Source: a virus
DNA length: 25,372 nucleotides
Direction: 5' to 3' (one strand)
Virus record (IMG/VR): IMGVR_UViG_3300047356_001007
Location: 1-25,372 of that record
Each line of letters begins with the position of its first letter. Position 1 is the stretch's first letter. The position numbers were made by a program, and so were the translations under genes. Positions 1-25,372 of the stretch are shown here, piece after piece. The notes under the pieces are model-generated. The model did no database searches. It was given only the letters and a program-made list of their open reading frames with translations, and was not told the DNA's origin.

Positions 1-2
1 AT

Positions 3-3000
3 TCAACAAGCGTACAAAATCCAAATGCTGAAGCAATTCTAGCACAAAATAAAAAGTTTATTCAAGAAGAAGTTACATACTGGATTAACCATAATGTAGG
101 AACAGCTGGTGGTTCAGGTATATGGAATAACTTTGATTATAGTAGTGCAAAATGTAAACGTGATGTAGGTTATATTGTTGATGCATGGATTAACGACTTG
201 TCAAGAGGCGGTAATATTGAAACACGTAGAATGGCTTCTAGTTATCTAGCAGGGAATCAAAATGCTGTAGGCCCATCTGGTACAGGATTAGGTACTGCGG
301 ACCAAATTGCACAAACAAATGGAGCAATTGAATTTGCAAGAGACCTTGTTGTAAACTATGTATTATCTAACACAGCATATACATCAAAGCAAGGTACATT
401 TGTTGTTGACGATCAGAACTTAACTGCAAACGCTTTTCAATTCTACATTGGTAGAAGTAGCTATGCAAACGTATACGTAAACGGTGGTACAGTAACTAAA
501 GCAGATAATACAGTATTACCAGTAAGTGTATTTGCTTATGATGAAGCAACAGGTATTGCTAGTATTACAACAGTTGGTAATCACGGACTAAGTGCAACAA
601 ATGTTATTACAATAGCAGGTATTAATGTTACTTGTACATTTGAAGGCTCTACAGTAGCAAAAGTATATCCAGAAAGTTTACCACAAGTTATTACAACACT
701 TGCAGTTGAATCAGGTACAGGTGTTAAAGATGTTGCAAACAGAGCAAGCACATTAACAAGTGTAATTACAAATGTTATAACTAATGGACTTAATTCGTTA
801 GTAGCACCAGAGAACCCAGTTGCGTCTGATAACACATGTGAACGTGATGTTGGGCTTATTATTGATGGAATGATTATTGACATTGGTAATGGTACAAACA
901 GTAACTTCAACGCTATACAAGCGGCTACACGCTACTTTAGTACAAGTTCAGGTGCTAGAGCACGTATTTCACAAGGTACAGAAACTAGAGCGGCTATGAC
1001 AAAAGCTAAAGCTATTGTTAATAGTGTAGTACAAAATATTGACTTGTTAACACAAAGTAAACGATTTGCTGTTGAAACAGATAACTTAACAACAAATACA
1101 TTCCAAGTTACTCTTGGAACAAATCCTTATTATCACACATATGTTAGTGGCGGTACTGTTACATTCAGTGGGGTTGATTATACTATTAGTGGTTTTAATT
1201 ATAGTCATACAACAGGTAAAGGTATTATCACAACTACTACTGCACACGGATTAGGTGCAGGTGATGTTGTTGTACTTGATAGTATTTTATTTGAATGTGA
1301 ATTTGGAACAAAAGTTTATCCATCAGATTACACAACTTTAATTCCGCAGTGGTTTGATTCTAGTATTAACGATGTTAGTACACAAGTTAAAGATGCTCTT
1401 AATGCTAAATTTGATATTATTCTTGATATCTTAGAAAACGGATTTAGTGCTAGAAATAATTACACACTAGTTGAAGGTAGTACATACTCAATTGACTTTG
1501 GTAACGGAATAGGTAATGATAGTACTGACCAAGGTGTTAACACTAACGTTGATATCCTTCCAGGTAAAATTATTATTGGTAAAACATCAGGTGCTAGAGG
1601 ACGTATTGTAAAATATACAAGTGGTGTAGATTTAGGCGGTACAGCATACGACAGAGCAGAAGTTGTACTAGTTGAGCCAAGAGACTTTAGAATTGGTGAA
1701 GAATTAGAATACGGTAACGGAACTAAAGAAAAACAAATTACTGTACACGTTGAAACAGGTATTTACTACGAAGACTATCCGTTGAAAGTTCCTGCTAACG
1801 TTTCAGTTAAAGGTTCAGACTTTAGACGTTGTCAAATTAGACCTGCTCCAAGAATTTCACAATCACCTTGGGCAACAACATATTTTTACAGAGACAAATT
1901 ACTAGACAATTTAAAAATTACAGACTACACAGGCGCTGACATAGCAACACCACAAGCTATTACAATGACAGGTAATAATAGTGTAGGCGGAAAAATTACA
2001 GTAACACCAGCAGACAACGTTGCTCCTATTGCTTGGGACGGTGCTTGGTTTTACACAGACAATGGTGCTGTAGGACTTATTAGTAATGCTGATGGTGGAA
2101 GCGACTTTGAAGTTACACTTACTACTGACATACTACCAAACCTAAGTGGAATTGCAAGTGGTGCTTGGCATGTTAAGAAGACTGTTAACTACGGTTATCA
2201 CTATTTAACTGATCCAAGTAATGCCGCAAGTACACCTAAACTGAACAACCAGATGGATGTGTTCTTAATGAATGATGCTACAAGACTAGCAAACATGTCA
2301 TTCCAAGGACATGGAGGATTTGCACAGGTACTTGATCCAGCAGGACAAGTATTAGTTAAATCACCATACACACAGGTTTGTGGTAGTTTCTCAGGCAGTG
2401 TTAACAAGCAAGCCTTTAGAGGAGGTATGTATATTGATGGTTTCTCAGGTAACTTAGAAACTAAGATTACAAGCAAAGACGACAACTTTACACTTAATGT
2501 ACAATCAGATGCAGGCACAGGTTTAAGAATTAGAAAACCACAGACACCTGCTCCGTTCTTTATTAACGGTGTACGTTATCAAGTTGATGCTGTTTCAGAA
2601 TACGATGGCGGAACAGGTACAGCAAAACTATTAATTAACAAACTTTCAAACGAAGGTAATGGTTATACTGATACTACATTCCCACAACAGATATATGTTC
2701 AAACTGCTGGTAACAGAAGTATGTTGGCAAACGACTATACTCAGGTTAACGATTTAGGTTACGGATTGTTCTGTAACAACGCGGCACTGTCAGAGCAAGT
2801 TTCAACATTTACTTACTATAACCATACAGCGTTCTTTAGTAACAACGGTTCAGAGATTAGAGCTCTTAACTGTTCTAACGCAAATGGTAACTTTGGTTTA
2901 GTTGCGGCAGGATCAGATCCAAACGAAACTGTTGATGCAATTACAACACTAAGAAATATGCAACAGCCTGGTAAAGTATTTAACGATGCTACAAATACAT

Positions 3001-5831: not shown

Positions 5832-6286
5832 TGGCTATTCAAACAATTAATATTGGATCAAGTGCAAACAAAGGCGATGGCGATCCATTAAGAACTGCAT
5901 TTACAAAAATTAACGCTAACTTTGCAGAGCTTGCTGTTACAAATAAAAATAGAGATATTAACGGATCTGTATTCGCTGATGATTCGACACTATTAGTTGA
6001 TGCTGTTAACGGAACAATTACAGCGGCAGTATTAGTTGGTACACTTCCAGCGTTAAACGGAAGTAATCTTACAAACTTAACTATTCCAGCACAGACGTTT
6101 GCCTCACTTACAAGTAAGCCAACTACATTAGCTGGTTACGGAATTACTGATGCGGCAACTTCTGCACAAGGTACTTTAGCGGCAAGTGCATTACAAGCAG
6201 AAACAATTACATTAACAACACTAAAAACAGAGGTAGCGGCAAGTGCCGACTTTGCAGACTTCAAAACTAGAATAGCGGCATTATAA
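5831..6286 (+). CDS. Small tail linker/fibre-associated protein, AIQTINIG-type N-terminus
   Basis: The 151-residue protein opens with MAIQTINIGSSANKGDGD followed by LR-AF-K-N-NF-EL. That motif is repeated in the gene at 9943 and, in degenerate form, at 13634. Residues about 75-110 include the phage-fibre motif KPTTLAGYGITDA, which recurs in the next gene (LPTTLSGYGITDS). The C-terminus is Ala-rich and probably helical. The ATG overlaps the upstream stop by one base, implying translational coupling with the giant fibre. I infer an adaptor or short fibre subunit joining larger fibre proteins to the tail; no enzymatic motif is visible. Confidence 0.7.
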   Translation: MAIQTINIGSSANKGDGDPLRTAFTKINANFAELAVTNKNRDINGSVFADDSTLLVDAVNGTITAAVLVGTLPALNGSNLTNLTIPAQTFASLTSKPTTLAGYGITDAATSAQGTLAASALQAETITLTTLKTEVAASADFADFKTRIAAL

Positions 6287-6296
6287 GGAAAAGAAT

Positions 6297-8324
6297 ATGG
6301 CAAACAGAATACCACTCATAGTTGATAGAGACGATAGCAACAAACTAAAAGAATTACCAATAGGTGATAATTTAGACTTAACAGGCTCAGGTATTACTGG
6401 AGCAGGAATGATTTCTGCAACAGGACTTACACTTGCTGGAGTTAACTATAATCCTTTTAGTGGCAGTTGGAATGACTTAGCAGATAAACCTACTGTAGCC
6501 GCAAGCACAACAGAATTAACAGAAGGTACTAATCAATACTTTACAAACGAAAGAGTTGATGACAGAGTAAATGCTATCCTTAGAGAAGGTAGCGGAATTG
6601 ATATTACATACGATGACTTAAACGGAACTATTACTATTGCCGCAACAGGTGGTGGTGGCGGTGGCTCCGGAGGTAGTGGACTTGTTACTGACCTAACAGG
6701 ACTAGCATCAAGTAACGTATTAAAATGGAATACAACAGCAGGCCAAGATAATAACGGAGCATGGGTAAACAGTTTTATTAACTATAGTGAAATTGTTGGT
6801 ACACCTAGTTTAGCCGCAGTAGCAATAAATGGAAGTTATAATAGTTTATCAAACAGACCAGACTTAGTTAACGACATTAGTGATTTATCAGATGTTGATA
6901 CACAAGGTACACCACCAACTCCAGGACAAGTATTAAAGTGGGATGGACTTAGATGGGCACCAGCTAACGATGCTACATCAGGTGGTGGCGGACTAAATGC
7001 TGATACACTTGATGGATTTGATAGTCCTTACTTTTTAGATTATAATAACTTAAACAACAGACCTAGTTTGTTTGATGGTAACTTTAGTTCAATAGTTGGA
7101 TTACCAACTACACTATCAGGTTACGGCATTACTGATTCTATTAGTGCAAACCAAAGTTATACACAAAACGGTAGTGTAACATTTAATAGTAATACAGGAA
7201 TAGTAGTTGGTACAGATGATAATCTTAAATTACGTGTAGACAATGCTGTAATTATTGAAAGCACAGTAGATGAACAAGATTTAGATATCAATGTAAAACC
7301 AATCACAGGTACAGAGACTGCAATTAAAATTGACACAGGTACAAAGCGTGTTGGTATCTTTACTACAACACCTTCACACAAACTTACAGTAGCAGGTGAT
7401 GTTAATGCTACTTCGTTTATTGGTAGTGGTACAAGTTTAACAGGTATTACACTTAGTCAAGTATTAGCAGGTGGTTCAGAAGTTAGTGATAGCGTGAGCT
7501 TTGGTAATGTAACACCTTACGCTACTGCAACATATAACTTAGGTGCAAGTAATAATGTTTATTCAAATGCATATGCAACTAACTTTCATGGAAGCGGTGC
7601 TAACTTAACAAATATTCCGTTAAGTGCATTATCAATTGGTAGCACTTTAAATATGGGTAGTAATGATATTACTACAACAGGCAAAGTTTACTTTGCAAAC
7701 GTATTTTCAACTGAAGGCGATTTACCAAGTGCTTCAACTTATCATGGAATGTTTGCACACGTTCACGGCACAGGAGCAGGTTACTTTGCTCACGCTGGTA
7801 ACTGGGTGCGATTAGCAAATCAATCAGAACTTAGTGGTTATCTAACAGACCTATCAACAACTAGTATTACTACACTATCAGATGTTAGTATTAATAGTCC
7901 ACAAGCAGGACAAACTATAAAATATGTTGGCGGCATTTGGACTAACGCTACAGGCGGCGACTCAGTTGGTAACTTTACATTTAGTTCTAGCGTAATAGAT
8001 ACTGATGACAGTTCACAAATTGTAATGACACCTAGTGTTAGAATGAGCAGTGATCTTGTAGTAGATGGAAATATTAATGCACAGAAATTTACAGCAGATA
8101 GTTTTGAAAGTAATGGTATAGGTATACCTGCAATAGATAGTAACAGTTCAATTGAGCTAAGAGCTACTGATCAAGTTAGAATTACGCAAAGTCCTTTAAG
8201 ACTTGCTAGTTATACAACAACAGAAAGAAATAGCTTAACACCAGGCAATGCAGATATGATTTATAATACTACAACTAACAAGTTCCAAGGTTATGCCAAC
8301 GGTGCTTGGGTTGACTTGCACTAG
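6297..8324 (+). CDS. Tail-fibre-like structural protein (675 aa)
   Basis: The protein starts MANRIPLIVDRDDSNKLKEL and carries motifs familiar from marine T4-like phage fibres: TTELTEGTNQYFTNERVDDRV, PTPGQVLKWDG, LNADTLDGFDSPYFLDYNNL, several DKPT/NRPDL/NRPSL repeats and LPTTLSGYGITDS. A Gly/Ser linker lies near residues 118-130. Two segments (DVNATSFIGSGTSLTGI and NAYATNFHGSGANLTNI) are internally related beta-repeats. It ends NTTTNKFQGYANGAWVDLH, a terminal motif also common in such fibres. Start context: an AAGGAA-like ribosome site just upstream at about 6286. It sits between the small linker gene and the protease gene. The structural role is well supported; fibre position and receptor are not known. 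Confidence 0.75.
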   Translation: MANRIPLIVDRDDSNKLKELPIGDNLDLTGSGITGAGMISATGLTLAGVNYNPFSGSWNDLADKPTVAASTTELTEGTNQYFTNERVDDRVNAILREGSGIDITYDDLNGTITIAATGGGGGGSGGSGLVTDLTGLASSNVLKWNTTAGQDNNGAWVNSFINYSEIVGTPSLAAVAINGSYNSLSNRPDLVNDISDLSDVDTQGTPPTPGQVLKWDGLRWAPANDATSGGGGLNADTLDGFDSPYFLDYNNLNNRPSLFDGNFSSIVGLPTTLSGYGITDSISANQSYTQNGSVTFNSNTGIVVGTDDNLKLRVDNAVIIESTVDEQDLDINVKPITGTETAIKIDTGTKRVGIFTTTPSHKLTVAGDVNATSFIGSGTSLTGITLSQVLAGGSEVSDSVSFGNVTPYATATYNLGASNNVYSNAYATNFHGSGANLTNIPLSALSIGSTLNMGSNDITTTGKVYFANVFSTEGDLPSASTYHGMFAHVHGTGAGYFAHAGNWVRLANQSELSGYLTDLSTTSITTLSDVSINSPQAGQTIKYVGGIWTNATGGDSVGNFTFSSSVIDTDDSSQIVMTPSVRMSSDLVVDGNINAQKFTADSFESNGIGIPAIDSNSSIELRATDQVRITQSPLRLASYTTTERNSLTPGNADMIYNTTTNKFQGYANGAWVDLH

Positions 8325-8332
8325 GAGTAAGC

Positions 8333-9922
8333 ATGAGTGAAAGAGAATATATTGTCACACTCAATAAGGGTGTTGATTACGCAGAATTCAACCAAGAAAT
8401 GATTTCGACAACAGGCGCTGGAGACATTCCAAATAGAACTGTTGACGTTGCAGATCCAAGAGTACTATCTACAAGAAATACACACTACGCATTAACACAA
8501 GCAGAGGCTGAAACTTTGCGTAACGATGGTAGAGTTACAGATGTACAACTACGTCCAGAAGACAGAGACGATATAGGTATAGGATACCAAGCAACACAAA
8601 CTGCTAATTTTAATAAATCATCAAGCGACTCAGGAGATTATAGAGACTGGGGGAAGATCAGACATAGTTTTGTAGAAAACAAATACGGCACATCAACTTC
8701 ATTAGCTACTAATCCTTTTGGCAGACCACATTCAATGGACGGAACAGGTGTTGATATTGTAATTCAAGATAGCGGATTACAAGTTGATCATCCAGAATTT
8801 CAAGATGCTAATGGAGTATCAAGAGTACAACTAATTGATTGGTATTCAGCTAGTGGAGTATCAGGATTTCAAAGTTCAAACCATTATAGAGACTATGACG
8901 GACACGGAACACATTGTGGCGGAACTGCAACAGGATTAAATTTTGGTTGGGCAACTAATGCTAGAATTTATAGTGTGAAAGTATCAGGTTTAGAAGGAAC
9001 AGGCGACTCGGGCGGAATAAGCACAAGTTTATGTTTTGATGTAATAAAAGGCTGGCATGAAAATAAACCTATAGACCCAAACACTGGTTATAAAAGACCT
9101 ACCATAGTAAATGCAAGTTGGGGATATAGTTTTTACATGGGAAGTTCTTTTACAAACATAAACAGTTATGTATATAGAGGAGCAAATTATAATTCTGGTA
9201 CAGCAGGCTGGAGCACTGGTACAACTTATCACAGAGATACATATGGATTTTATCCTTACTATGCAAGCGGAGGTTATCGAGGTCCTGTAAGATTAGCATC
9301 TGTAGATGCAGATGTGCAAGATTGTATAGATGCCGGTGTACATATTTGTATTGCGGCAGGTAACAATAGTTTTAAAATTGCTAATAGCAGTGATCCTGAT
9401 TACAATAATATTATTTTTTACGGTGGTGGATCAAATAATTATTACCATAGAGGTAGTTCTCCCTTTGATGACGAGGCACTTATAGTAGGCTGTACAGATA
9501 GCACTCCACAAGATGCAACAACAGAAAGAAAAACAAGTTTTAGTTCAACAGGACCAGGAGTAAATATTTTTGCCGCTGGAGAAAACATCGTAAGTGCATG
9601 TAGCACTGTTACTAGATTCGGAAACACACAATACTTTGGCAACTCTAGTTTTAAGCAAACAAATATTAGTGGAACGTCTATGGCTTCACCGCAGGTTTGC
9701 GGAGTGGGTGCATTATATCTACAAGCTGATCCTAGCCTAACTCCAGCACAATTAAAAAGCAAACTTGAAAACGATGCTTTATCTGTTTTAAAAGACGAAT
9801 CAAATAATAGTAACTACGGCGATACAACTGATATTTGTGGGGGGAATAACAGAATGTTGTTTAATAGATATAATAATGCTGTTCCTTTTACAAGTAATGT
9901 TATAGGACTGAAGAAGCGATAA
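8333..9922 (+). CDS. Subtilisin-like serine protease (peptidase S8 family) in the tail module
   Basis: A complete subtilase of 529 residues. Catalytic Asp146 lies in VIQDSGLQVDHPEF, His191 in YDGHGTHCGGT and Ser449 in ISGTSMASPQVCG; the oxyanion Asn is in CIAAGNNSF. Residues 5-75 (REYIVTLNKG; ALTQAEAETLRNDGRVTDVQ) look like an I9-type propeptide inhibitor. There is no signal peptide or transmembrane segment. The gene has its own GGAG site (8324-8327) and lies between fibre genes, with a late-type promoter for the next gene overlapping its stop. All triad residues are present, so it should be active. Plausible roles are processing of fibre proteins during assembly, or a virion-borne enzyme digesting host surface protein. 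The family call is firm; the role is inference. Confidence 0.93.
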   Translation: MSEREYIVTLNKGVDYAEFNQEMISTTGAGDIPNRTVDVADPRVLSTRNTHYALTQAEAETLRNDGRVTDVQLRPEDRDDIGIGYQATQTANFNKSSSDSGDYRDWGKIRHSFVENKYGTSTSLATNPFGRPHSMDGTGVDIVIQDSGLQVDHPEFQDANGVSRVQLIDWYSASGVSGFQSSNHYRDYDGHGTHCGGTATGLNFGWATNARIYSVKVSGLEGTGDSGGISTSLCFDVIKGWHENKPIDPNTGYKRPTIVNASWGYSFYMGSSFTNINSYVYRGANYNSGTAGWSTGTTYHRDTYGFYPYYASGGYRGPVRLASVDADVQDCIDAGVHICIAAGNNSFKIANSSDPDYNNIIFYGGGSNNYYHRGSSPFDDEALIVGCTDSTPQDATTERKTSFSSTGPGVNIFAAGENIVSACSTVTRFGNTQYFGNSSFKQTNISGTSMASPQVCGVGALYLQADPSLTPAQLKSKLENDALSVLKDESNNSNYGDTTDICGGNNRMLFNRYNNAVPFTSNVIGLKKR

Positions 9923-9925: not shown

Positions 9926-9942
9926 TAGTATAGGAGACTTAC

Positions 9943-15899: not shown

Positions 15900-15913
15900 A
15901 GAAAGTAAATAAA

Positions 15914-16333
15914 TTGAAGAATGTAGACTTAAACAAGTATAAAGATTTCGTGCGAGAAGTTACTAGTGGTGAATCACTATCAAGTATGCAGATGTATAAT
16001 CGTATAGTTGATATTGAAACAACTGAAAGTAAGATGGGCGTAAACATGTCATTGCTAATGACTGGGGCTATTGGTATTAGTGCAGAAGGTGGTGAGTTTA
16101 TGGAAATTATTAAGAAGTGTGTATTCCAAGGCAAGCCCATGGACGAAGATACACAATATCATGCAATGCGTGAGCTTGGTGATATTATGTGGTACTGGAT
16201 GAATAGTTGTACTGCATTAGGTGTTGACCCAAATGATGTTATTGCTGAAAATGTTAAAAAATTAGAAAAGCGTTATCCGGGCGGATCATTCGATCCTTAC
16301 TATTCAGAAAATAGACAAGAAGGCGACATCTAA
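15914..16333 (+). CDS. MazG-like nucleoside triphosphate pyrophosphohydrolase
   Basis: The 139-residue protein has the all-alpha NTP-PPase signature: E58-x-x-E61 (with E64) in ISAEGGEFMEIIKK and E87-x-x-D90 in HAMRELGDIMWYW, which coordinate Mg2+. These enzymes hydrolyse NTPs or dNTPs to the monophosphate and pyrophosphate. Marine phages commonly carry a mazG, proposed to affect ppGpp or to clean nucleotide pools. I place the start at TTG 15914: there is no in-frame ATG before residue 25, and the nearest ATG (15921) is out of frame. Only a weak GAGAAAG precedes it. The C-terminus (KRYPGGSFDPYYSENRQEGD) is typical of phage members. Confidence 0.85.
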   Translation: MKNVDLNKYKDFVREVTSGESLSSMQMYNRIVDIETTESKMGVNMSLLMTGAIGISAEGGEFMEIIKKCVFQGKPMDEDTQYHAMRELGDIMWYWMNSCTALGVDPNDVIAENVKKLEKRYPGGSFDPYYSENRQEGDI

Positions 16334-16334
16334 T

Positions 16335-16907: not shown

Positions 16908-16932
16908 CATTCCTACCTTAATACGCTATAAT
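16904..16932 (+). promoter_or_regulatory. Consensus sigma-70 promoter (TTGACA-N17-TATAAT)
   Basis: TTGACA at 16904-16909 and TATAAT at 16927-16932 are separated by exactly 17 bases, a full consensus match. The -35 box contains the stop codon of the upstream HAD gene. The first downstream ATG is at 16962, preceded by GGAG (16952-16955). The promoter should be read by unmodified host polymerase and therefore drive early expression of the block that starts with the small membrane protein and DexA-like gene. Confidence 0.88.
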
Positions 16933-16961
16933 GTATAAAATGAGATTATACGGAGTAGCAT

Positions 16962-17126
16962 ATGAAATTTCCAAAACCACAAACAAGTAGCATAGGCACA
17001 ACAGGCCTAGCTGGTGTAGCATTAATGACGTTGCATTTAACCGGTATGATTACAGGATGGGGATGGCCTATACTTTATATACTGCTTATCATAAGTGCAA
17101 TAGGTCAAGAAAATAGGAAAGGTTAA
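16962..17126 (+). CDS. Small membrane protein (54 aa)
   Basis: A short gene in the 218-base gap after the HAD gene. The ATG at 16962 has GGAG at 16952-16955, six bases upstream. The product starts MKFPKPQTSSIGTTGLAGVA and has one or two hydrophobic segments (about 15-30 and 33-48, including WPILYILLIISAIG), ending QENRKG. Its stop overlaps the ATG of the exonuclease gene by one base. As the first gene after a strong promoter it is likely made early. No known family recognised; a small inner-membrane protein acting on the host is an inference. Confidence 0.75.
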   Translation: MKFPKPQTSSIGTTGLAGVALMTLHLTGMITGWGWPILYILLIISAIGQENRKG

Positions 17127-17665
17127 TGGCAACACACGGAATGATTGACTTGGAGACACTTGGCGTTGAGCCAGATAGTGTTATTATTACTCTAGGTGCG
17201 GTAAAATTTGATCCGTTCAGTGATGCTGAACCCAATCATGGTTTGTATCTACGTTGTGACGTAGAAGAACAATCAGAAAAATATGGTCGGAGTATTGACG
17301 ACAATACATTAGCATGGTGGAGTAAACAAAAGCAAGAAATCCAAGACGAAGCCTTTGGAGATCATGAGCGAGTAAATATGGATAGCTTAACAAAACAACT
17401 TAACAAATGGTGTGTTGGAGTTGATTATCTATGGTGTCAAGGACCTTTATTTGATTATGCAATATTACAAAACTTATACAAGAACGTTGGCAAGCCTTGT
17501 CCGTGGAACTTTTGGCAAATTAGAGATAGTAGAACTGCGTTTGCAATGATGCCTAGTGATCCACGTAAAGCAATACAAGAGCAATTACACAATGCACTAG
17601 CAGATTGTTACTATCAAGCAAAATGCTTACAGCAAACATATAAACATTTCGGAATAACAAAATGA
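17126..17665 (+). CDS. dexA: DexA-like 3'-5' exonuclease (DEDDh family)
   Basis: The 179-residue protein has all DEDDh residues: Asp8 and Glu10 in MIDLETLG, Asp110 in CQGPLFDYAIL, and His155 with Asp160 in HNALADC. Overall order and length fit the T4 DexA/exoribonuclease-like group, which degrades single-stranded DNA or RNA from the 3' end. In T4, DexA is an accessory early exonuclease, fitting its place just behind the sigma-70 promoter. Substrate preference (DNA or RNA) cannot be decided from sequence. It overlaps the upstream small gene by one base, and the next small gene by four (ATGA). Confidence 0.87.
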   Translation: MATHGMIDLETLGVEPDSVIITLGAVKFDPFSDAEPNHGLYLRCDVEEQSEKYGRSIDDNTLAWWSKQKQEIQDEAFGDHERVNMDSLTKQLNKWCVGVDYLWCQGPLFDYAILQNLYKNVGKPCPWNFWQIRDSRTAFAMMPSDPRKAIQEQLHNALADCYYQAKCLQQTYKHFGITK

Positions 17666-17829
17666 AAAAGAAAATAGATACAAGACGAGATGCTTGGGAT
17701 AGAGATTATATGGGCGGGCATTATGTGAAGCCTGAGCCAACAAGCACTAAACAAATTTCAAATGCGGCACCAGTACTTGTGTTTGCATTTTTCTTTATAG
17801 CAATATTAATAATGGTAGGTAACAAATGA
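17662..17829 (+). CDS. Small membrane protein (55 aa)
   Basis: The ATG at 17662 overlaps the exonuclease stop (ATGA) and its TGA (17827-17829) overlaps the start of the clamp-loader gene (ATGA again), so it fits exactly between two sure genes. The product has a basic, polar N-terminal half (MKKKIDTRRDAWDRDYMGGH) and one C-terminal transmembrane segment (VLVFAFFFIAILIMV), followed by GNK. The topology is probably N-in with a single anchor. No family recognised. The double overlap is the main evidence that it is translated. Confidence 0.7.
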   Translation: MKKKIDTRRDAWDRDYMGGHYVKPEPTSTKQISNAAPVLVFAFFFIAILIMVGNK

Positions 17830-18740
17830 AAGAATTATGGGTAGAGAAATACCGTCCAAGCACAGTTGATGGATATGTATTTAGAGATGATGCACAAAAG
17901 CAACAAGTTAATCAATGGATCAAAGATGGTACTATTCCGCATTTGCTGTTTAGTGGCAATGCAGGCATTGGTAAGACAACACTTGCAAAGATTCTTCTTA
18001 ATCAATTAGAAGTAGGCGATCTTGATATACTAGAGATTAATGCTAGTAGAACAAACAGTGTAGAAGATGTGCGTGATAAGATTGTAAACTTTGTACAAAT
18101 GATTCCATTTGGTGAGTTTAAGGTTGTACTACTTGATGAGGCTGATTATTTAAGTCCAAACGCACAGGCGGCACTACGTGGTGTTATGGAGGAGTATCAT
18201 ACAACAGCAAGATTTATTTTAACTTGTAACTATCCTAACAGAATTATTCCTGCACTACATAGCAGGTGTCAAGGCTTTCATATTGAACGTATTGACCAAA
18301 CAGAATTTACTGCACGAGTTGCAGAAATTGTTCTTACAGAAGGTGTTACTCCAGACTTGGATATCTTAGACACTTATGTAAAAGCAACGTATCCTGATTT
18401 GCGTAAATGTATTAACATGGTGCAAATGAATTGTGTTGACGGCAAACTAGTGCCGCCGGCTAAAGCAGATACAGGTGATGCTGACTATAAGATTGAAATG
18501 GTTGAATTGTTTAAAGCGGGTAAGATAGGACAAGCACGTAAACTAGTCTGTTCGCAAGCAAGGCCAGAAGAGATTGAAGATATATACAAATGGTTGTATG
18601 ACAACATTGATCTGTTTGGTGATGAAGAAAAGCAAGAAAGTGCAATCCTAATTATTAAGCAAGGACTTGTAGATCATACATTAGTTTCCGATCCGGAGAT
18701 TAATTTAGCCGCAACCTTAATTAGATTAGCGAGATTGTAA
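17826..18740 (+). CDS. 44: Sliding-clamp loader subunit, gp44-like (RFC small subunit-type AAA+ ATPase)
   Basis: The 304-residue AAA+ protein is close to the usual gp44 length. Walker A is GNAGIGKT (44-51), Walker B VVLLDEAD (100-107), sensor 1 lies in ILTCNYPNR and the arginine-finger motif SRC is at 146-148. It opens WVEKYRPSTVDGYV, a hallmark of RFC/gp44 proteins. Four gp44 subunits plus one gp62 load the gp45 clamp on primer-template DNA. A gp62 partner and gp45 clamp are not seen here and would lie outside the window. It is inside the overlapping early block, four bases into the preceding gene. Confidence 0.95.
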   Translation: MKELWVEKYRPSTVDGYVFRDDAQKQQVNQWIKDGTIPHLLFSGNAGIGKTTLAKILLNQLEVGDLDILEINASRTNSVEDVRDKIVNFVQMIPFGEFKVVLLDEADYLSPNAQAALRGVMEEYHTTARFILTCNYPNRIIPALHSRCQGFHIERIDQTEFTARVAEIVLTEGVTPDLDILDTYVKATYPDLRKCINMVQMNCVDGKLVPPAKADTGDADYKIEMVELFKAGKIGQARKLVCSQARPEEIEDIYKWLYDNIDLFGDEEKQESAILIIKQGLVDHTLVSDPEINLAATLIRLARL

Positions 18741-19184
18741 ATGAAGATTTTAATATTTGGACTACCTGGTAGTGGGAAAACTACACTTGCAAAACCCTTT
18801 GCAGACTTAATTGGAGCAGTACACATTAACGCTGATGCAGTACGTACACAGTACGAAGGACCAGACATGACTAAATGGAACTTTAGTCTGGAAGGTCGTA
18901 TGCAACAGTCACAGCGTATGCGTCATTTAGCTGATGGAGTAGTCATGGCCGGCAAAATTGCAGTTGCTGACTTTGTGTGCCCCACAGAAGAAGCACGTAC
19001 ACAGTTTGCGCCAAACTATACTGTTTGGATGGATACTATCAAAGAAGGAAGATTTGAAGATACTAATAAAATGTTTAAAGCACCTACACACTTTGACTAC
19101 CATGTAAAAGAATGGTTTACTGATACACACGCACAACTTTCAGAAGTAGTAAAAAATTATATGGAGAGAAACAATGTCGTTTGA
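18741..19184 (+). CDS. P-loop kinase, adenylylsulfate kinase-like
   Basis: The 147-residue protein starts with MKILIFGLPGSGKTTLAKPF (Walker A at 7-15). It continues with HINADAVR (about 28-35), which resembles the LDGDNVR segment of APS kinase (CysC), and ADFVCPTEEAR (76-86), which resembles CysC's SPYREDR region. A conserved-looking VWMDTIKEGRFEDTN follows. APS kinase phosphorylates adenylyl sulfate; other small P-loop kinases (polynucleotide, gluconate-type) share this layout, so the substrate is uncertain. It begins directly after the clamp-loader stop and overlaps the nucleotidyltransferase gene by 11 bases, which suggests the two enzymes act together. Confidence 0.75.
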   Translation: MKILIFGLPGSGKTTLAKPFADLIGAVHINADAVRTQYEGPDMTKWNFSLEGRMQQSQRMRHLADGVVMAGKIAVADFVCPTEEARTQFAPNYTVWMDTIKEGRFEDTNKMFKAPTHFDYHVKEWFTDTHAQLSEVVKNYMERNNVV

Positions 19185-19587
19185 TTTACAAAAACCTACA
19201 ACACAAATGCTTGGACGTTGGCAACCTTGGCATCCTGGACATACAGAACTGTTCAAACGTGCAATATCCGAAACAGGTCAAGTATGTATTATGGTTCGTG
19301 ACGTTGGCGGCATTATAGGTAAAGACGCTGGCGCAGGACGTACTGCAACTCAAGACGATAATCCGTTTGAATTTCATACTATTAGTGGTGATATACAATG
19401 GGCATTAAAGCAAGAAGGTTACGAGCATCATGTAGACTATATTATTATGCAAGTACCCAACATTGTAGATATTAGTTACGGACGAGGTGTAGGCTACACT
19501 TTTACAGAACATGACTTAGGAAAAGAGATACATAATATTAGTGCAACAAACATACGTGCAGAAATGCGAGATAAAGGAGAGCTATGA
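19174..19587 (+). CDS. HxGH-type nucleotidyltransferase (cytidylyl/adenylyltransferase-like)
   Basis: The 137-residue protein has the nucleotidyltransferase start [17 protein letters not shown], with the HxGH motif at His20-His23, and the C-terminal ISATNIR (122-128) equivalent to the ISxTxxR motif. These bind the triphosphate of ATP or CTP in NMN adenylyltransferase, phosphopantetheine adenylyltransferase, glycerol-phosphate cytidylyltransferase and relatives (ATP sulfurylase uses a similar fold). The R-x-QP-x-HxGH opening leans towards NadM-like enzymes. The second substrate is unknown. The gene overlaps the kinase by 11 bases and the ferredoxin by four. Confidence 0.8.
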
Positions 19588-19925
19588 CCTATCTAGTCAA
19601 CGATAACTGTATTAAATGTAAACATATGGATTGTGTAGAAGTATGTCCTGTAGACTGTTTTTATGAAGGCGAAAACATGCTTGTAATTAATCCAGACGAA
19701 TGTATTGACTGCGGAGTATGTGAACCCGAATGTCCAGTAGATGCTATTATTACAGACTTTCAAGATACTGATAATAAATTTTACGAGCTTAATCATAAAT
19801 GGTCAAACACTTGGCCTAATATTACAACAAAAGAAGAATCACAAGTACCAGCTGATGCAGAAGAATGGGCAGACGTAAAAGACAAGATGAAATACTTTTC
19901 TGAAAAACCCGGAGCAGGAGATTAG
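19584..19925 (+). CDS. fdxA: Seven-iron ferredoxin (3Fe-4S plus 4Fe-4S), FdxA-like
   Basis: The 113-residue protein follows Azotobacter FdI/FdxA over its full length. Cysteines 9, 17 and 50 match the 3Fe-4S ligands and cysteines 21, 40, 43 and 46 the 4Fe-4S ligands, in [18 protein letters not shown] and [15 protein letters not shown]. The tail (SNTWPNIT, then EEWADVK and [10 protein letters not shown]) resembles alphaproteobacterial FdxA, which often ends with a similar GKGD-like sequence. It is a soluble low-potential electron carrier; the partner is unknown, though phage or host oxidoreductases are candidates. All ligands are intact, so it should be functional. It overlaps the preceding gene by four bases and the next starts one base after its stop. 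It is a host-derived auxiliary gene by inference. Confidence 0.95.
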
Positions 19926-20246
19926 ATGAAATTAAAATGCAAACACATTTTATTAAGTTTTGATAAATCACCAAATAGTTCTCACGATAGACCTTTAGGT
20001 GTTGCTGTTGCTGATGCTGAACAACTAATAAAAGATATTAAAAGCAGTAAAATTAGTTTTACCGAAGCGGCAGGCAAACATAGTGCATGTGCAAGTGGTC
20101 CAAGACACGGCGGAGAGCTAGGATGGTTTGAAGAAGAAAAAATGCACCCTGACTTTAGTAATGCTGTAAAAGTAATTCAAGTTGACGATATTGGTCCACC
20201 TGTGATTACTCCTTGGGGTGTACATATTGTATATAGGCAAGGTTAA
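19926..20246 (+). CDS. Parvulin-type (PpiC/Pin) peptidyl-prolyl cis-trans isomerase
   Basis: The 106-residue protein consists of a single rotamase domain with no signal peptide or anchor. It has the parvulin HIL strand in CKHILLSF, then FTEAAGKHSACASGP, GGELGWFEEEKMHPDFSNAV, and the C-terminal PPVITPWGVHIVYRQG strand. It should catalyse Xaa-Pro isomerisation in the cytoplasm. It lies between the ferredoxin and methyltransferase genes, its stop overlapping the next ATG by one base. Candidate clients are phage structural proteins or host proteins. Confidence 0.88.
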   Translation: MKLKCKHILLSFDKSPNSSHDRPLGVAVADAEQLIKDIKSSKISFTEAAGKHSACASGPRHGGELGWFEEEKMHPDFSNAVKVIQVDDIGPPVITPWGVHIVYRQG

Positions 20247-20884
20247 TGGGTCCTGAAGGTTCAAATTTAAAATTTAGCGAAAACGGCTGTGATTTTTGGG
20301 CGTTGGACAATAGCTATTATAGAAAAGGTTTCTTTGTTGATATTGGTGCTAGTGATGGAGTTACTGCTAGTAATACATACTTGCTTGAAAAGTTTTATAA
20401 ATGGCAGGGCATCTGTGTAGATCCAAATCCTGTTACATTAAAAAGTATGTGTGGTGCTAGAGATACAATAGTTAGCGACCTTTGTGTATACAATGAATCA
20501 GGAAAAATATTACCTTTTAAATACTTAGGTGACCAATCAGAATTTTATGGTTGGAATCTTCGAAGTGGTATAGATGGTCTTGTAAGCAAAGATATGCCTG
20601 TTAAAATGAACGATCATAAAGTGTTTACAATTACACTTACGGATTTGTTAGAACTTTATAATGCGCCTAATAAGATTGATTACATAAGCATTGATGTTGA
20701 AGGAAGTGAAATTGAAGTTTTAACAGGACTTGACTTTTCTAAATATGATGTTAAAATGTTTAGTATAGAATATGAGAATGAAGAAAATAGAGCAAAGATA
20801 GACTGGATCATGTCTAGAAATAATTATAATAGAGTTGACTTTGATCAACAATGTACAGAAGATAGGTATATAAAGAATGGTTGA
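20246..20884 (+). CDS. FkbM-family SAM-dependent methyltransferase
   Basis: The 212-residue protein has motif I VDIGASDGVTASNTYLLEK (31-49), a SAM-ribose acidic segment ICVDPNP (56-62), and the FkbM signature IDYISIDVEGSEIEVLTGLD (144-163), followed by FSIEYENEE. FkbM enzymes methylate oxygen on sugars or small molecules. In marine T4-like phages they are often found with 2OG oxygenases and sugar-modifying genes; here a 2OG oxygenase follows directly with an eight-base overlap. Substrate unknown. It could modify lipopolysaccharide, a phage glycan or DNA. Confidence 0.85.
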   Translation: MGPEGSNLKFSENGCDFWALDNSYYRKGFFVDIGASDGVTASNTYLLEKFYKWQGICVDPNPVTLKSMCGARDTIVSDLCVYNESGKILPFKYLGDQSEFYGWNLRSGIDGLVSKDMPVKMNDHKVFTITLTDLLELYNAPNKIDYISIDVEGSEIEVLTGLDFSKYDVKMFSIEYENEENRAKIDWIMSRNNYNRVDFDQQCTEDRYIKNG

Positions 20885-21410
20885 GTATGAATACTACGAT
20901 TGGAACAACTTACTTACAGAAGACGACAGACAAAGAATGTGTCGTGATGTATCAACTGGTATAGACTCTGGTAAATTTTGGACTAACAGTCCTAAGTATC
21001 AAACTGATTGGAATGTGTTCCAAGACTTTACAGATCTAAAGATGAGTTTTCTTTGGAGTTGTTTTAGATACTTAGGTAGAGAAGTTCAAATTAAGAATGT
21101 ACAAAGCTGGAGTTTTCGTACAAGTTTAAAACACGTTGAAACTAGAGATACACTTTGGCATCATCATAATCATAATAAAGAAACAAAAACAGTAAGTGGT
21201 GTATACTATATGCACTTACCTGATGATGTAAAAGATTTAGAAAAAGCAGGAACAGAATTAGCACCTGTTAGTCCAGAAGGTGAAGGTAACTTTTTTGTAC
21301 CTTGGAAAACAGGACATTGGATGATTTATCCTGGAGCGGTATGGCATCGTCCAGGCGTAGTACAATCACAACAAGACCGCTTTATTGTAGCGGCAGATAT
21401 GGAGTTTTAA
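20877..21410 (+). CDS. 2-oxoglutarate/Fe(II)-dependent oxygenase-like protein
   Basis: The 177-residue protein has a central His cluster (WHHHNHN, residues 94-100) followed by VSGVYYMHLP. The distal part GHWMIYPGAVWHRPG (147-160) supplies His157, with Arg168 in QQDRFIVAADMEF as the 2-oxoglutarate contact. This is the layout of the phage 2OG-Fe(II) oxygenases that hydroxylate sugars or proteins. The HxD part of the classical iron triad is not obvious, so the metal ligands are uncertain. It overlaps the FkbM gene by eight bases and probably acts in the same modification pathway. Confidence 0.78.
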   Translation: MVEYEYYDWNNLLTEDDRQRMCRDVSTGIDSGKFWTNSPKYQTDWNVFQDFTDLKMSFLWSCFRYLGREVQIKNVQSWSFRTSLKHVETRDTLWHHHNHNKETKTVSGVYYMHLPDDVKDLEKAGTELAPVSPEGEGNFFVPWKTGHWMIYPGAVWHRPGVVQSQQDRFIVAADMEF

Positions 21411-22073
21411 GTGAACGTTAAATTAGTAAGTTATAGTAAACCAGCAGACGAGTTTTTAAAAGAAGGACTTTTTGATGTTCAAGATCTTATTGCATTTTGT
21501 GCCAAAGTATCAAATCCTACAGCACAAATTAATATGGAAACAAGTGAACGTTTAATTAAGTATTTGATTAAACATCAACATTGGTCACCTTTAGAAATGG
21601 TTAATGCAGTATTAGAAATTAATACTACACGTGATATTGCACATCAAATTGTAAGACACCGTAGTTTTGCTTTCCAAGAGTTTTCACAGCGTTATGCAGA
21701 TCCTAAAGAGCAAGGTGAGATGTTCGAATACAGTGAAGCACGTTTACAGGATCCAAAGAACAGACAAAATAGTGTTGATGTAGACGATGCAAAGTTACAA
21801 CTTGATTGGGAACATGCACAAAGACGTATAGCAGTACTAGCCAAAAAAGAATATGATTGGGCTATTAAGAAAGGTATTGCTAAAGAACAAGCACGTAAAG
21901 TATTACCCGAAGGTCTTACAAAAACACGACTGTATATGAATGGTACCCTAAGAAGCTGGGTTCATTATATTGATCTACGCGGTGCCAATGGCACACAAAA
22001 AGAACATATGGAAATTGCCCATTCGTGTGCCAAAGTTATCGCTGAAATTTTTCCGTTAATGAAAGAGCTTTAG
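21411..22073 (+). CDS. thyX: FAD-dependent thymidylate synthase ThyX
   Basis: The 220-residue protein carries the ThyX motif RHR-x7-S at Arg82-His83-Arg84...Ser92 (RHRSFAFQEFSQRY), and the C-terminal region LRSWVHYIDLRGANGTQKEH expected of the family. It makes dTMP from dUMP using methylenetetrahydrofolate and FAD, supplying thymidine for an AT-rich genome. The start is GTG 21411, immediately after the oxygenase stop. It is the last gene of the plus-strand block; only three bases separate its stop from the converging phoH. Confidence 0.95.
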   Translation: MNVKLVSYSKPADEFLKEGLFDVQDLIAFCAKVSNPTAQINMETSERLIKYLIKHQHWSPLEMVNAVLEINTTRDIAHQIVRHRSFAFQEFSQRYADPKEQGEMFEYSEARLQDPKNRQNSVDVDDAKLQLDWEHAQRRIAVLAKKEYDWAIKKGIAKEQARKVLPEGLTKTRLYMNGTLRSWVHYIDLRGANGTQKEHMEIAHSCAKVIAEIFPLMKEL

Positions 22074-22076
22074 ACT

Positions 22077-22799
22077 CTATTCATCACCGTATACTTCAAG
22101 TACCTCCCTCACTGCGTCATGCCTTTCGATATCTTGGTGGCCAAATTCTATAGATGATAGGTGTGACGCATTACCAAACTTACCTAAATGATTAATAAAG
22201 TCAATTAAGCCATTATCTTTCATTCTGTCTGCTTGATTTAAGTCTCCTGTTACGGCCATCTTGGAACCTTCCCCTAAACGTGTTAGTAGCATCTTCATTT
22301 GATTAGCTGTTGAGTTTTGCATCTCGTCAGCAATGATGTATGCCTTTTTAAACGTTCGACCACGCATGTATGCTAACGGTGCTATTTCTAGTACACCTTC
22401 TGCAATCATGCCTTCAATTTCTTTTGCTGTAAAATACTCTCGTAATACGTCAAAAATAGGTCTAGTCCAGGGGGCCATCTTTTGTTCTAAGGTGCCAGGT
22501 AAAAAACCTAGATCCTCGTCAACTGAAACAGCCGGTCTTGTAACAATAATTTTGTCCACAACACCTTCTTTAAAAAGTTTAATTGATGTTAAAACTGCTA
22601 TCAGAGTCTTACCAGTACCAGCCGGACCAATACCAAAGACAACGTCTTTCTTTGCATCAGCCAGAGTTAGCATGTAAGATTCCTGTGCCTTATTACGAGG
22701 CACAATTTTAACATTTTTGTGCTTTTCAGGAAGGTAGTTATTAATTTGAACAACATTATTGTGAAAGTTCTTGCTCTTGCGAGCTCGCTTTGCACTCAT
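22077..22799 (-). CDS. phoH: PhoH-like P-loop ATPase
   Basis: The only minus-strand gene in the window. The 240-residue protein has Walker A GPAGTGKT (58-65) and Walker B AYIIADEMQNST (Asp158-Glu159), followed by MLLTRLGEGSKMAVTGDLNQAD, all typical of the PhoH ATPase domain. It starts MSAKRARKSKNFHNNV, a basic N-terminus. The ATG at 22799 is preceded by a strong AAAGGAGG site (22814-22807, minus strand). PhoH is widespread in marine phages, and its role (RNA or phosphate-stress related) is not settled. It converges tail-to-tail with thyX. Confidence 0.95.
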   Translation of the reverse strand: MSAKRARKSKNFHNNVVQINNYLPEKHKNVKIVPRNKAQESYMLTLADAKKDVVFGIGPAGTGKTLIAVLTSIKLFKEGVVDKIIVTRPAVSVDEDLGFLPGTLEQKMAPWTRPIFDVLREYFTAKEIEGMIAEGVLEIAPLAYMRGRTFKKAYIIADEMQNSTANQMKMLLTRLGEGSKMAVTGDLNQADRMKDNGLIDFINHLGKFGNASHLSSIEFGHQDIERHDAVREVLEVYGDE

Positions 22800-22852
22800 G
22801 AAGTGTCCTCCTTTAATGTGACTTCTATAAACTCTTACTTTGTTTACAAAAA

Positions 22853-22860
22853 TATTTATC
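22853..22860 (-). promoter_or_regulatory. Candidate late promoter for phoH (GATAAATA, minus strand)
   Basis: The plus strand reads TATTTATC, so the minus strand reads GATAAATA, 54 bases before the phoH ATG. It is the same octamer as at 9918, 13605 and 22899 and lies within a true intergenic gap. Confidence 0.5.
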
Positions 22861-22898
22861 TAGGTTTGTCAACTGTTAAGTGCTAACACAACTTATGT

Positions 22899-22906
22899 GA
22901 TAAATA
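22899..22906 (+). promoter_or_regulatory. Candidate late promoter for the structural gene at 22935 (GATAAATA)
   Basis: GATAAATA lies 29 bases before the ATG at 22935, with AGGTGG (22922-22927) as ribosome site. It mirrors the octamer facing phoH in the same gap. Confidence 0.55.
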
Positions 22907-22934
22907 ACTATATAATAGAATAGGTGGCGATATA

Positions 22935-23471
22935 ATGAAAGATATCACAGACGTAGTAAAAAACATATCAGAAATATATGACAGCGATGTAGCATTCACT
23001 GTATTAAAAGACTTTGAAAGAGTGCTAGACGATCTAGACATATATGTGTATGATAACTGGTCAGAAGGCGAAATAGTGCATGGTCCTAAAATTAGTAGAC
23101 ATTGGGTAACCTGTGCGTTTATGTGGCCATTAGACGAAATGCCTGATCCAATGGGCGGAAAACGTCTATTAGACTATGACTGTAAAGTTACCTATAAAAA
23201 AGACAAGATTATTAGACCACGTAAAATACGTAAACCAGATGATATTCGCCCTGGTACTAAAAAAGGCAAGTTAGACACATTACCTATTTGGGTAGTAGAG
23301 ATTATGATGCCTAAGAAATTAATTGCAGATATATACGGTGGTATGAAAGCTATGACTGACTATGAAATTGATGCAGGATCACAACCTACGGTTCCAGCAG
23401 AAACACAAGAAGCTGATGTAGGTGCAGAAGCAACTGCTGATGTAGGTGGCGAAGAGTTAGAGACAGTATAA
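22935..23471 (+). CDS. Virion structural-type protein (178 aa), function unknown
   Basis: Not assigned to a named function, though the pattern ERVLDDLDIYVYDNWSEGEI, HWVTCAFMWPLDEMPDPMGG and KRLLDYDCKV followed by RPGTKKGKLDTLPIWVVEIMM is familiar from conserved structural proteins of marine T4-like phages. The C-terminal 35 residues (GSQPTVPAETQEADVGAEAT) are an acidic, Ala-rich flexible tail. It has AGGTGG at 22922-22927 and a late-type promoter octamer at 22899. Its stop overlaps the start of the next gene by one base, and the two probably form an assembly pair. A neck, tail or baseplate location is possible; the sequence does not say. Confidence 0.65.
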   Translation: MKDITDVVKNISEIYDSDVAFTVLKDFERVLDDLDIYVYDNWSEGEIVHGPKISRHWVTCAFMWPLDEMPDPMGGKRLLDYDCKVTYKKDKIIRPRKIRKPDDIRPGTKKGKLDTLPIWVVEIMMPKKLIADIYGGMKAMTDYEIDAGSQPTVPAETQEADVGAEATADVGGEELETV

Positions 23472-24169
23472 TGGGTTTACTTAAAAACGATCTAGGACAT
23501 CTAGTAGATAAAATTATTGAAATTGATTCTTATAAATCTAAGATGGGTGAAGATTCTGATATTGTTACACTAGCATTTAGTGTACACGGAAACGAGCCTG
23601 CAAAAGATTTAGAAAATTTTATTGAAAAAGGTTATCCGTTTGTTCTTGATGCTGACGTTACTTCAGGTGAACAGTCAGATGGTACATATAAAGTGTTTGT
23701 TGAAATAGAACGCACAAAAGATATATCAAATAATATTTTAGAAATTGCAGACGGTGTCAAAAAATTAGCTGATTTAGAAAGTATGAAGTTTAGGTACTAT
23801 AAGAATTTTAGAAGTAGAGACTTAGACGAAGAAAATTTAGCAATTATACCTGTTGATCAATCAAGTTACGAAATTGCAATAAACGAAACACAGTACGAAA
23901 ACTATAAAAACTTCTTTACTAAAAGTTATGCTGAATCAATCGATATGTTAGGTGAAACATTAATTGTTAAAAATACATATGCACAACCAATGAGATTTGA
24001 AGTAACTGACTTTGGTAGAGATCCTATGATTGAAGAAACAATAAACATGAAAGATATGGGTGAAGTAATTTTCCTTTCCAAAGTATTAGGAGACTATAAC
24101 ATTACCAAATACGGTAATACTATTGTACTAACAAACGAAGGTTATAGACTACACCTAAAAAGGATTTAA
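23471..24169 (+). CDS. Virion structural-type protein (232 aa), partner of the upstream gene
   Basis: No enzymatic motif seen. The protein starts MGLLKNDLGHLVDKIIEIDS and contains SDIVTLAFSVHGNEPAKDLE, a segment VLDADVTSGEQSDGTYKVFV and an ISNNILEIADGVKKLADLES helix, ending GNTIVLTNEGYRLHLKRI. This arrangement is seen in conserved structural proteins of marine T4-like phages. It overlaps the 178-aa gene by one base, and the next small gene starts immediately after its stop (TAAATG). The structural role is inferred from context and resemblance. Confidence 0.65.
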   Translation: MGLLKNDLGHLVDKIIEIDSYKSKMGEDSDIVTLAFSVHGNEPAKDLENFIEKGYPFVLDADVTSGEQSDGTYKVFVEIERTKDISNNILEIADGVKKLADLESMKFRYYKNFRSRDLDEENLAIIPVDQSSYEIAINETQYENYKNFFTKSYAESIDMLGETLIVKNTYAQPMRFEVTDFGRDPMIEETINMKDMGEVIFLSKVLGDYNITKYGNTIVLTNEGYRLHLKRI

Positions 24170-24322
24170 ATGAACAACTGTTTAAACTGCGGACACGGAT
24201 CACATTGCGGGACAAGTTTATTCAAAGATCATAAAGACGGCGATAACCAAATTATAAATATTAAAGTATGTGAGCAATGTCGGTGTAAGGCATGCCAAAC
24301 AAAGGATACAGATAATGGCTAA
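24170..24322 (+). CDS. Small Cys-rich zinc-ribbon-like protein (50 aa)
   Basis: The ATG at 24170 follows the previous stop directly and the TAA (24320-24322) overlaps the endolysin start by eight bases. The product (MNNCLNCGHGSHCGTSLFKD...) has seven cysteines: 4, 7, 13, 34, 37, 39 and 42, giving CxxC near the N-terminus and CxxCxCxxC near the C-terminus, plus His9 and His12, which suggests one zinc site or two. Small zinc-ribbon proteins of this style occur in marine T4-like phages. Its own function is unknown. A late promoter octamer lies inside it. Confidence 0.75.
   Translation: MNNCLNCGHGSHCGTSLFKDHKDGDNQIINIKVCEQCRCKACQTKDTDNG
24253..24260 (+). promoter_or_regulatory. T4-consensus late promoter (TATAAATA) ahead of the endolysin
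   Basis: TATAAATA, the exact T4 late -10 element, lies inside the Cys-rich small gene, 54 bases before the endolysin ATG at 24315. It would give late transcription of the lysis genes independent of the structural genes. It is the only exact T4-consensus octamer I noticed in the window. Confidence 0.6.
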
Positions 24323-25163
24323 AGAACACTTTAAATTTGATTTCGAAGAATGGATGGCAGAAGAGCTTATTCATAGAGACGACTGGAAAGATTGGTACGA
24401 AGCAATGTTAGAAGTGCTTCCGTTATGGGAAGTAAATACAGCAGAGCGTGTAGCAATGTTTGTAGCACAGTGTGGACACGAGTCCGGCGGCTTTAGAGTA
24501 CTAAGTGAAAACTTAAACTACAGCGCCAAAGCACTTAACACAATTTTTCCTAAGTATTTTAGACGAGCAAACAGAGATGCAAATGAATATCATAGACAAC
24601 CTGAAAAAATCGCAAACGTTATTTACGCTTCACGTATGGACAACGGCGACACTGATAGCGGTGACGGCTGGCGCTTTCGCGGTGGTGGTATACTTCAGTT
24701 AACTGGACGTTACAATTATACACAGTTTGCTAAAGAAATGGAAATGACTCCAGAAGAAGCAACCGACTATGTACGCACTAAGAAAGGCGCACTAGACTCA
24801 GCATGTTGGTTCTGGGATACAAACGGCATAAACAAGTATTGTGATAACATGGACGTTGTAGGTGCTACAAAACGCATCAATGGTGGCACTATTGGATTAG
24901 ACGATCGTAAGAAACATTATCTACATGCAATGGATGTACTAGGTGGTGACTTTGAAGAGCCTGAAACAGATTACAATCAAACTATCAGAGTAGGATCACG
25001 TGGTCCATTAGTAGCAGAAGTACAAGAGAAACTTGATATTTCACCTGCTGACGGTATCTTTGGTCCAGGTACTGCACGTATTGTTAAAGAGTGGCAATCA
25101 AGTCAAGGCTTAGTTGCTGATGGTATAGTCGGACCTAAGACGCTGGGAAAGTTACTAGGGTAA
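24315..25163 (+). CDS. GH19 chitinase-type endolysin with C-terminal peptidoglycan-binding domain
   Basis: I use ATG 24315, with AAAGGA (24300-24305) about nine bases upstream; the frame also extends to a GTG at 24270, which is less likely. The 282-residue protein has the GH19 signature MFVAQCGHESGGFRVLSENL (catalytic Glu56, second Glu65) and DGWRFRGGGILQLTGRYNY (117-135). A PG_binding_1-like domain follows at about 218-282 (TIRVGSRGPLVAEVQEKL; ADGIFGPGTARIVKEWQ; VADGIVGPKTLGKLL). GH19 lysins cut the glycan strands of peptidoglycan. No signal peptide is present, so release should need a holin or another route. It is followed by a membrane-anchored spanin candidate. Confidence 0.9.
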   Translation: MAKEHFKFDFEEWMAEELIHRDDWKDWYEAMLEVLPLWEVNTAERVAMFVAQCGHESGGFRVLSENLNYSAKALNTIFPKYFRRANRDANEYHRQPEKIANVIYASRMDNGDTDSGDGWRFRGGGILQLTGRYNYTQFAKEMEMTPEEATDYVRTKKGALDSACWFWDTNGINKYCDNMDVVGATKRINGGTIGLDDRKKHYLHAMDVLGGDFEEPETDYNQTIRVGSRGPLVAEVQEKLDISPADGIFGPGTARIVKEWQSSQGLVADGIVGPKTLGKLLG

Positions 25164-25171
25164 ATACAAAT

Positions 25172-25372
25172 ATGTTTAGTGGATTAAAAATTGCATTAGT
25201 TTTTATAGTTCTAGCCGCGGCTGGAGGTGGATTATTCTATGTCAAACAACTACAATCTAATTTGGAAATAGCAAGATTAAACAACGCTAAGTTAGAAAGT
25301 GCTGTTGAAACAAGTGAAGCAAGTATAGCAACGCTTAAAGCAGACAATATTAAACTAAACAAATTATCAGAC
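25172..25372 (+). CDS. Membrane-anchored coiled-coil protein, spanin candidate (3' partial)
   Basis: An ATG at 25172 opens a frame that runs to the window edge (67 residues visible). The N-terminus MFSGLKIALVFIVLAAAGGG then LFYV is a single transmembrane segment. It is followed by a polar stretch KQLQSNLEIARLNNAKLESA then VETSEASIATLKADNIKLNK, which looks like a coiled coil. That topology, immediately downstream of an endolysin, fits an inner-membrane spanin (Rz-like) that helps disrupt the outer membrane. An outer-membrane partner is not visible. No strong ribosome site precedes the ATG. Its Ala-Ala-Ala is written GCC GCG GCT (25214-25222), relevant to the GCWGC finding. Confidence 0.65.
   Translation, partial: MFSGLKIALVFIVLAAAGGGLFYVKQLQSNLEIARLNNAKLESAVETSEASIATLKADNIKLNKLSD

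Follow-up and report, generated by a model that had tools for sequence, protein, structure and literature searches.

The window analysed here is the whole 25,372 bp stretch of IMG/VR record IMGVR_UViG_3300047356_001007, with a G+C content of 36.8%. It is a fragment of a large T4-like phage, as judged from a gene content that includes tail-fibre and subtilase-like genes, a clamp loader, MazG, ThyX, PhoH and an endolysin, and the phage looks lytic. IMG/VR classes the record as linear, and the record is probably itself a fragment. Among isolated phages, clamp loader and PhoH place the window nearest to jumbo phages, for example PA5oct (55% and 51% identity to the window, respectively) and Atu_ph07 (47% for both), and the clamp-loader/PhoH neighbourhood is common to the window and these isolates. 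A megablast search of the window against 50,697 phage records gave no match. The subtilase-family protease gene (8333-9922) lies within the tail-fibre module, and a 176-aa protein encoded at 14490-15020 matches the DNA polymerase III alpha NTPase domain in part only.

Table 1. Features of the window, with the GCSGC words that it contains
Feature	Position	Strand	Remark
Whole window, GCWGC-free on both strands	1..25372	.	0 vs about 33 expected
GCGGC at an Ala-Ala pair	2781..2785	+	1 of the 35 GCGGC words in the window
GCCGC in tail-fibre-like gene	6498..6502	+	exact count
GCGGC at an Ala-Ala pair in subtilase-like gene	9353..9357	+	exact count
GCC GCG GCT (GCCGCGGCT), three Ala codons without GCWGC	25214..25222	+	exact count
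Clamp-loader AAA+ ATPase (T4 gp44-like)	17826..18740	+	marker for fetching relatives and for the tree
Ferredoxin FdxA, proteobacterial type	19584..19925	+	sole host hint within the window
Parvulin-type peptidyl-prolyl isomerase, small gene	19926..20246	+	in 13/19 site-poor and 0/13 other contigs
thyX, FAD-dependent thymidylate synthase	21411..22073	+	left edge of methyltransferase insertion point
thyX-phoH junction	22074..22076	.	empty in window; DNA methyltransferase directly after thyX in G017 and G022
PhoH-like ATPase	22077..22799	-	marker for fetching relatives; minus-strand gene, also site-free
GCSGC starts 1-22 of 44	921, 990, 2223, 2781, 2904, 3024, 3540, 3744, 3795, 3819, 4116, 4218, 4590, 4671, 5337, 5358, 5442, 6023, 6152, 6179, 6236, 6275
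GCSGC starts 23-44 of 44	6498, 6639, 6813, 7930, 7954, 9353, 9572, 10171, 12239, 12779, 13748, 14027, 17764, 18168, 18452, 18708, 19307, 20067, 21390, 24487, 25214, 25217

GCWGC is excluded from the window. GCAGC and GCTGC, which are reverse complements and therefore count as one site, both have an exact count of 0, and GCGGC and GCCGC occur 35 and 9 times; the sequence-only reading had noticed the absence and had put the latter two at about 30 and 8. Its estimate of 15-20 expected GCWGC sites was too low, as a maximal-order Markov model gives 32.8 and two codon-preserving shuffles give 34.1 +/- 2.4 and 31.9 +/- 2.6 (minimum 24 in 300), or about 33. The comparison with a codon-preserving shuffle, which that reading had proposed as a check, thus stands at 0 vs 31.9 +/- 2.6. 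No other strand-symmetric 5-mer of the window is as strongly depleted as GCAGC/GCTGC (z -12.6). The site is missing from each codon phase, from each coding strand and from the non-coding DNA, which rules out a codon or translational cause, and the minus-strand phoH gene is likewise empty, in agreement with the earlier claim that the depletion affects both strands.

The sites were swapped synonymously rather than deleted, because GCNGC in the coding sequences remains at expectation (41 vs 42-43); GCSGC is raised about four-fold (41 vs 7.7-10.7 expected). Alanine codons that precede another alanine (n=36) are GCG in 29 cases and GCC in 7, and never GCA or GCT, so that the three dozen or so Ala-Ala pairs said to start with GCG or GCC come to 36/36. 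Among the 577 alanines elsewhere, GCA (344) and GCT (189) predominate, with GCG (23) and GCC (21) making up 44/577 (8%). The examples quoted earlier lie at the positions given for them, the GCCGC placed near 6497 sitting at 6498.

Relatives of the window were fetched by PhoH and clamp-loader searches. Among the resulting 160 loci, GCWGC is absent or almost absent in about 100, normal in about 40 and intermediate in the rest, although loci from different searches may overlap per phage and our counts rest on dereplicated totals only. A count in related phages, also proposed as a check, gave 0 vs 929 expected for all GCWGC in 27 dereplicated strict sequences (0.90 Mb). The 156,563 bp contig G001 has 0 vs 150 expected, and the count is also 0 in the whole contigs G005, G006, G008, G009, G010, G011 and G012. 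The site-free group consists of widespread large aquatic, largely marine, bacterial viruses, and DNA identity among site-avoiding phages is just ~73%. In the clamp-loader tree the window's group comprises 79 rows, 78 of them at <=0.1 of expected GCWGC; outside this group the site-free trait is patchy and occurs in several separate lines. At homologous positions in relatives, the commonest replacement of GCWGC is GCSGC.

The loss of GCWGC is not intrinsic to such phages, since sister relatives and isolated controls lie near expectation. GCWGC stands at 0.85-0.94 of expected in the normal relatives G013, G015, G018 and G048, at 0.71 in G016 and at 0.6-1.0 across other relatives. In the isolated phages HTVC008M, Atu_ph07, PA5oct, P-SSM2 and Vibrio phage 2.058.O, the extended word HGCWGCD (H = A/C/T, D = A/G/T; its own reverse complement) is found at 0.92-1.31 of expected. 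A library or assembly artefact was ruled out by the single metagenome 3300021964, which holds the site-free loci L021 and L023 alongside the normal L152 and L156.

Other words are also depleted in these genomes. GTGCAC does not occur in the window, where a Markov model predicts 13 over both strands (about 6-7 sites), and stands at 0.08-0.14 of expected alike in site-free relatives, in related methyltransferase-bearing relatives and in GCWGC-normal ones; it is a second site that the whole group avoids, irrespective of GCWGC. AGCT falls short in every group, at 0.53 of expected in the site-free clade and 0.59-0.70 in the others.

Partial depletion proved to follow a rule of its own. Seven contigs without the phage methyltransferase described below (G002, G004, G007, G024, G025, G026 and G027; G003 is nearly identical to G002 and G004) stand at 0.05-0.31 of expected, and the sites that survive in them are GGCWGC or GCWGCC only. 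Pooled over six contigs, which are fragments and for which flank-class expectations came from codon shuffles or a Markov model, observed over expected counts are 0/396 with neither flank (HGCWGCD), 35/56 with 5'-G only, 12/42 with 3'-C only and 12/6 with both; G024 follows the same pattern, with 0 vs 55 expected for neither flank. HGCWGCD totals 0 vs 1,053 expected in 35 dereplicated sequences (1.39 Mb), and the sampled loci are nearly binary, with none in 111 loci, a single site in L127 and the rest well populated. As the survivors are defined by their flanks, the residue reflects a second exact rule, and weak selection was ruled out as the source of partial depletion in these genomes. An ORF in both G002 and G003 (G002_0070 and G003_0111) encodes a 477-aa membrane protein that, by eye only, has the look of a TctA-type transporter permease.

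The flank effect is symmetric across the strands. That either flank rescues a site, and that HGCWGCD is self-complementary, argues for dimeric recognition of a palindrome and not of asymmetric GCAGC. In the window's own set GGCWGC and GCWGCC are gone as well. The flank rule also extends outside the window's group, as the methyltransferase carriers L354, L361, L347 and L352, unrelated by clamp loader, are HGCWGCD-free and have kept GGCWGC/GCWGCC. HGCWGCD had no match in a literature search, and we know of no similar flank rule for TseI/ApeKI-type systems.

The thyX-phoH interval holds a gene for a 373-aa DNA methyltransferase in G017 (at 16922-18043 of that contig) and G022. Its SSPPY and GYGGR motifs are invariant in 26 aligned family members, motif IV is N4C-like (FSSPPY), and a homologue in a Vibrio phage is annotated as an N4C methylase. 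An AlphaFold2 model (pLDDT 82, pTM 0.84) has SAM-methyltransferase matches in the PDB, and the predicted structure is a SAM-methyltransferase fold. No Pfam or NCBIfam model matched the protein at E 0.001, and a PDB sequence search with it gave nothing meaningful. The C5 methylase model PF00145 was found in 0/50 contigs. PF01555 was found neither in the site-free G001, G005, G006 and G008-G012 nor in the methyltransferase-bearing G051; its silence in this carrier means that the model misses the divergent methyltransferase family in some contigs. The family has 145 relatives in viral contigs, and an alignment search matched just three cellular assemblies, probably through phage contigs in MAGs, so that the methyltransferase points to no host.

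Carriage of this gene is associated with relief from the ban. Among 65 dereplicated loci with both clamp loader and thyX, 1/16 carriers is site-free vs 38/49 non-carriers, a contrast whose strength is exaggerated by the p of 5e-7, because carriers and non-carriers came from separate searches and share ancestry. In carriers related to the window GCWGC mostly stands at 0.13-0.91 of expected, without the flank rule. Their returned sites are chiefly at Ala-Ala, with 387/747 expected (0.52) in codon phase 0 vs 21/119 (0.18) elsewhere (p 2e-6). Such a phase-0 excess would fit regrowth of GCWGC from GCSGC by G/C-to-A/T synonymous mutation after release, and not steady weak selection. There are exceptions: G051 (0 vs 46 expected) and L284 (0 vs 11 expected) are site-free carriers, and the unrelated carrier L354 has HGCWGCD at 0 vs 14 expected, with 17 flanked sites kept. 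These and similar carriers may be recent acquisitions or have other specificities, and because of them the GCWGC specificity of the methyltransferase is something we infer.

Several features bear on the host. The window's ferredoxin scores above the NCBIfam threshold for proteobacterial FdxA, from which our guess would be a proteobacterial host; compared with 399 genomes of one phylum its best identity is 71%, which is not decisive. Thymidylate synthase is ThyX in 87 and ThyA in 10 of the HGCWGCD-free loci, compared with 20 ThyX and 26 ThyA in other loci, a split that could stem from different hosts or from shared ancestry. Parvulin is the only gene family found in most site-poor contigs and in none of the others (Table 1), and is probably a lineage or host marker.

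The best explanation, and one that we consider likely, is that the lineage has long been evading an orthodox Type II endonuclease with the palindrome (H)GCWGC(D) as its target. It would face such a cutter at nearly every infection and over a long time; every GCWGC has been removed, mostly synonymously (GCW to GCS at Ala-Ala). The cutter would be host-encoded and near-constant in the hosts, and may be a homodimer reading HGC half-sites, met in two forms of which one discriminates the flank and one does not. With less confidence, the N4-cytosine-like methyltransferase of the thyX-phoH interval may protect some relatives, which would then regain sites by mutation. The sequence-only reading had proposed long-term avoidance of a host restriction or methylation site. 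Avoidance of the palindrome at the DNA level is strongly supported by the clade-wide absence, the synonymous swaps, the effect on both strands, the normal sisters and isolates and the symmetric flank rule; the host enzyme is a matter of what we infer. Against escape from a Type II cutter, constant pressure across ~73%-identical phages is odd for restriction-modification genes, which are usually patchy in distribution, and the flanked and unflanked specificities need two enzymes or a further factor.

Such constant exposure, together with strict clade-wide zeros, would be accounted for if the phages encode their own (H)GCWGC(D) endonuclease against host DNA or rivals and are protected from it by having no sites. 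A handful of site-poor contigs (G004, G009, G027, G039 and G042) do carry HNH genes, and with contigs being fragments the gene could be missed. However, no nuclease-like family tracks the trait in the covered parts of 19 site-poor vs 13 other contigs, the HNH family shared by G004, G009 and G027 occurs in the normal G018 too, and GIY-YIG is found in 0/44 contigs. Coverage is considerable, in that site-free contigs include 103/133 core families of the normal relatives, or 120 when the partly depleted contigs are added, and the proteins confined to site-poor contigs are by Pfam 2OG oxygenases and a Fis-type HTH protein, with no nuclease. Acquisition of such an enzyme by a genome with some 200 sites would also presumably be lethal without a methylase, and we regard this explanation as unlikely. 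We think it quite unlikely, too, that the exclusion is self-imposed in the wider sense that either the site-free phages or a constant genetic partner make an HGCWGCD cutter against host or rival DNA, to which, having no site, they would be immune without methylation.

The remaining alternatives concern how the site is read. Absence of GCWGC alone cannot separate the palindrome from asymmetric GCAGC, a target that Type IIS, Type III or BREX-like systems would read, as GCAGC and GCTGC are reverse complements. In that case only one flank should matter, yet 3'-C alone rescues (12/42 vs 0/396), and a survey found that Type III sites are very seldom avoided and those of Types I and IIG never (PMC6286503); an asymmetric target is therefore improbable. 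It is more doubtful still that a host methylation signal is itself avoided, because methylated phage DNA would provoke a regulatory or Type IV reaction and not because of a cutter. There is a precedent in the GCWGC m4C methyltransferase M.AbaBS3I of a lake Chloroflexota, listed without a partner restriction-modification system (PMC6329791), but such a signal would rarely be lethal per site, and 0 vs 1,053 needs strong selection on each. Finally, both m5C and m4C methylation are known at GCWGC (PMC8936443, PMC6329791), and methylated sites could deaminate to GTWGC or GCWAC. Mutational loss of this kind is hardly credible, as the commonest replacement is GCSGC and not these C-to-T products, GCSGC is up in the window, and a strict zero needs selection.

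Escape from a Type II cutter would accord with the literature. Phages, mostly lytic ones, are well known to evade restriction by losing recognition sites; the sites lost are almost exclusively those of orthodox Type II systems, and roughly one viral genome in ten has eliminated a site completely or nearly so (PMC6286503). Our phages resemble those surveyed lytic dsDNA phages in eliminating an orthodox Type II-like palindrome, but differ in that the elimination spans a clade of large phages (0/929, 0.9 Mb), follows a flank-resolved rule and includes a phage methyltransferase linked to relief (PMC6286503). The core word is shared with TseI/ApeKI-type systems, GCWGC methylation being known from Aeropyrum pernix (PMC8557920). 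M.AbaBS3I, from lake Chloroflexota CL500-11, methylates GCWGC as m4C (PMC6329791), a chemistry that the N4C-like FSSPPY motif of the phage methyltransferase would match, but it is cellular whereas the phage family is found almost only in viral contigs. The earlier suggestion of an ApeKI/TseI-type or BbvI site agrees with the data in its palindromic form; BbvI (GCAGC, Type IIS) shares the same five bases on one strand, but the two-sided flank rule argues against its asymmetric site.

What is new here is how widely jumbo phages exclude the site, a footprint resolved to the flanking base, and the release pattern with its link to a movable phage methyltransferase. Phage genomes can in this way record the specificity of an unseen enzyme down to the flanking base, so that a missing host defence becomes predictable and then searchable. 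The three clean states seen in close relatives (all sites banned, HGCWGCD banned, no ban), combined with a movable methyltransferase, provide a natural experiment on the speed of site purging under restriction and of site return. The GCWGC pattern could also help to assign hosts to uncultured jumbo phages.
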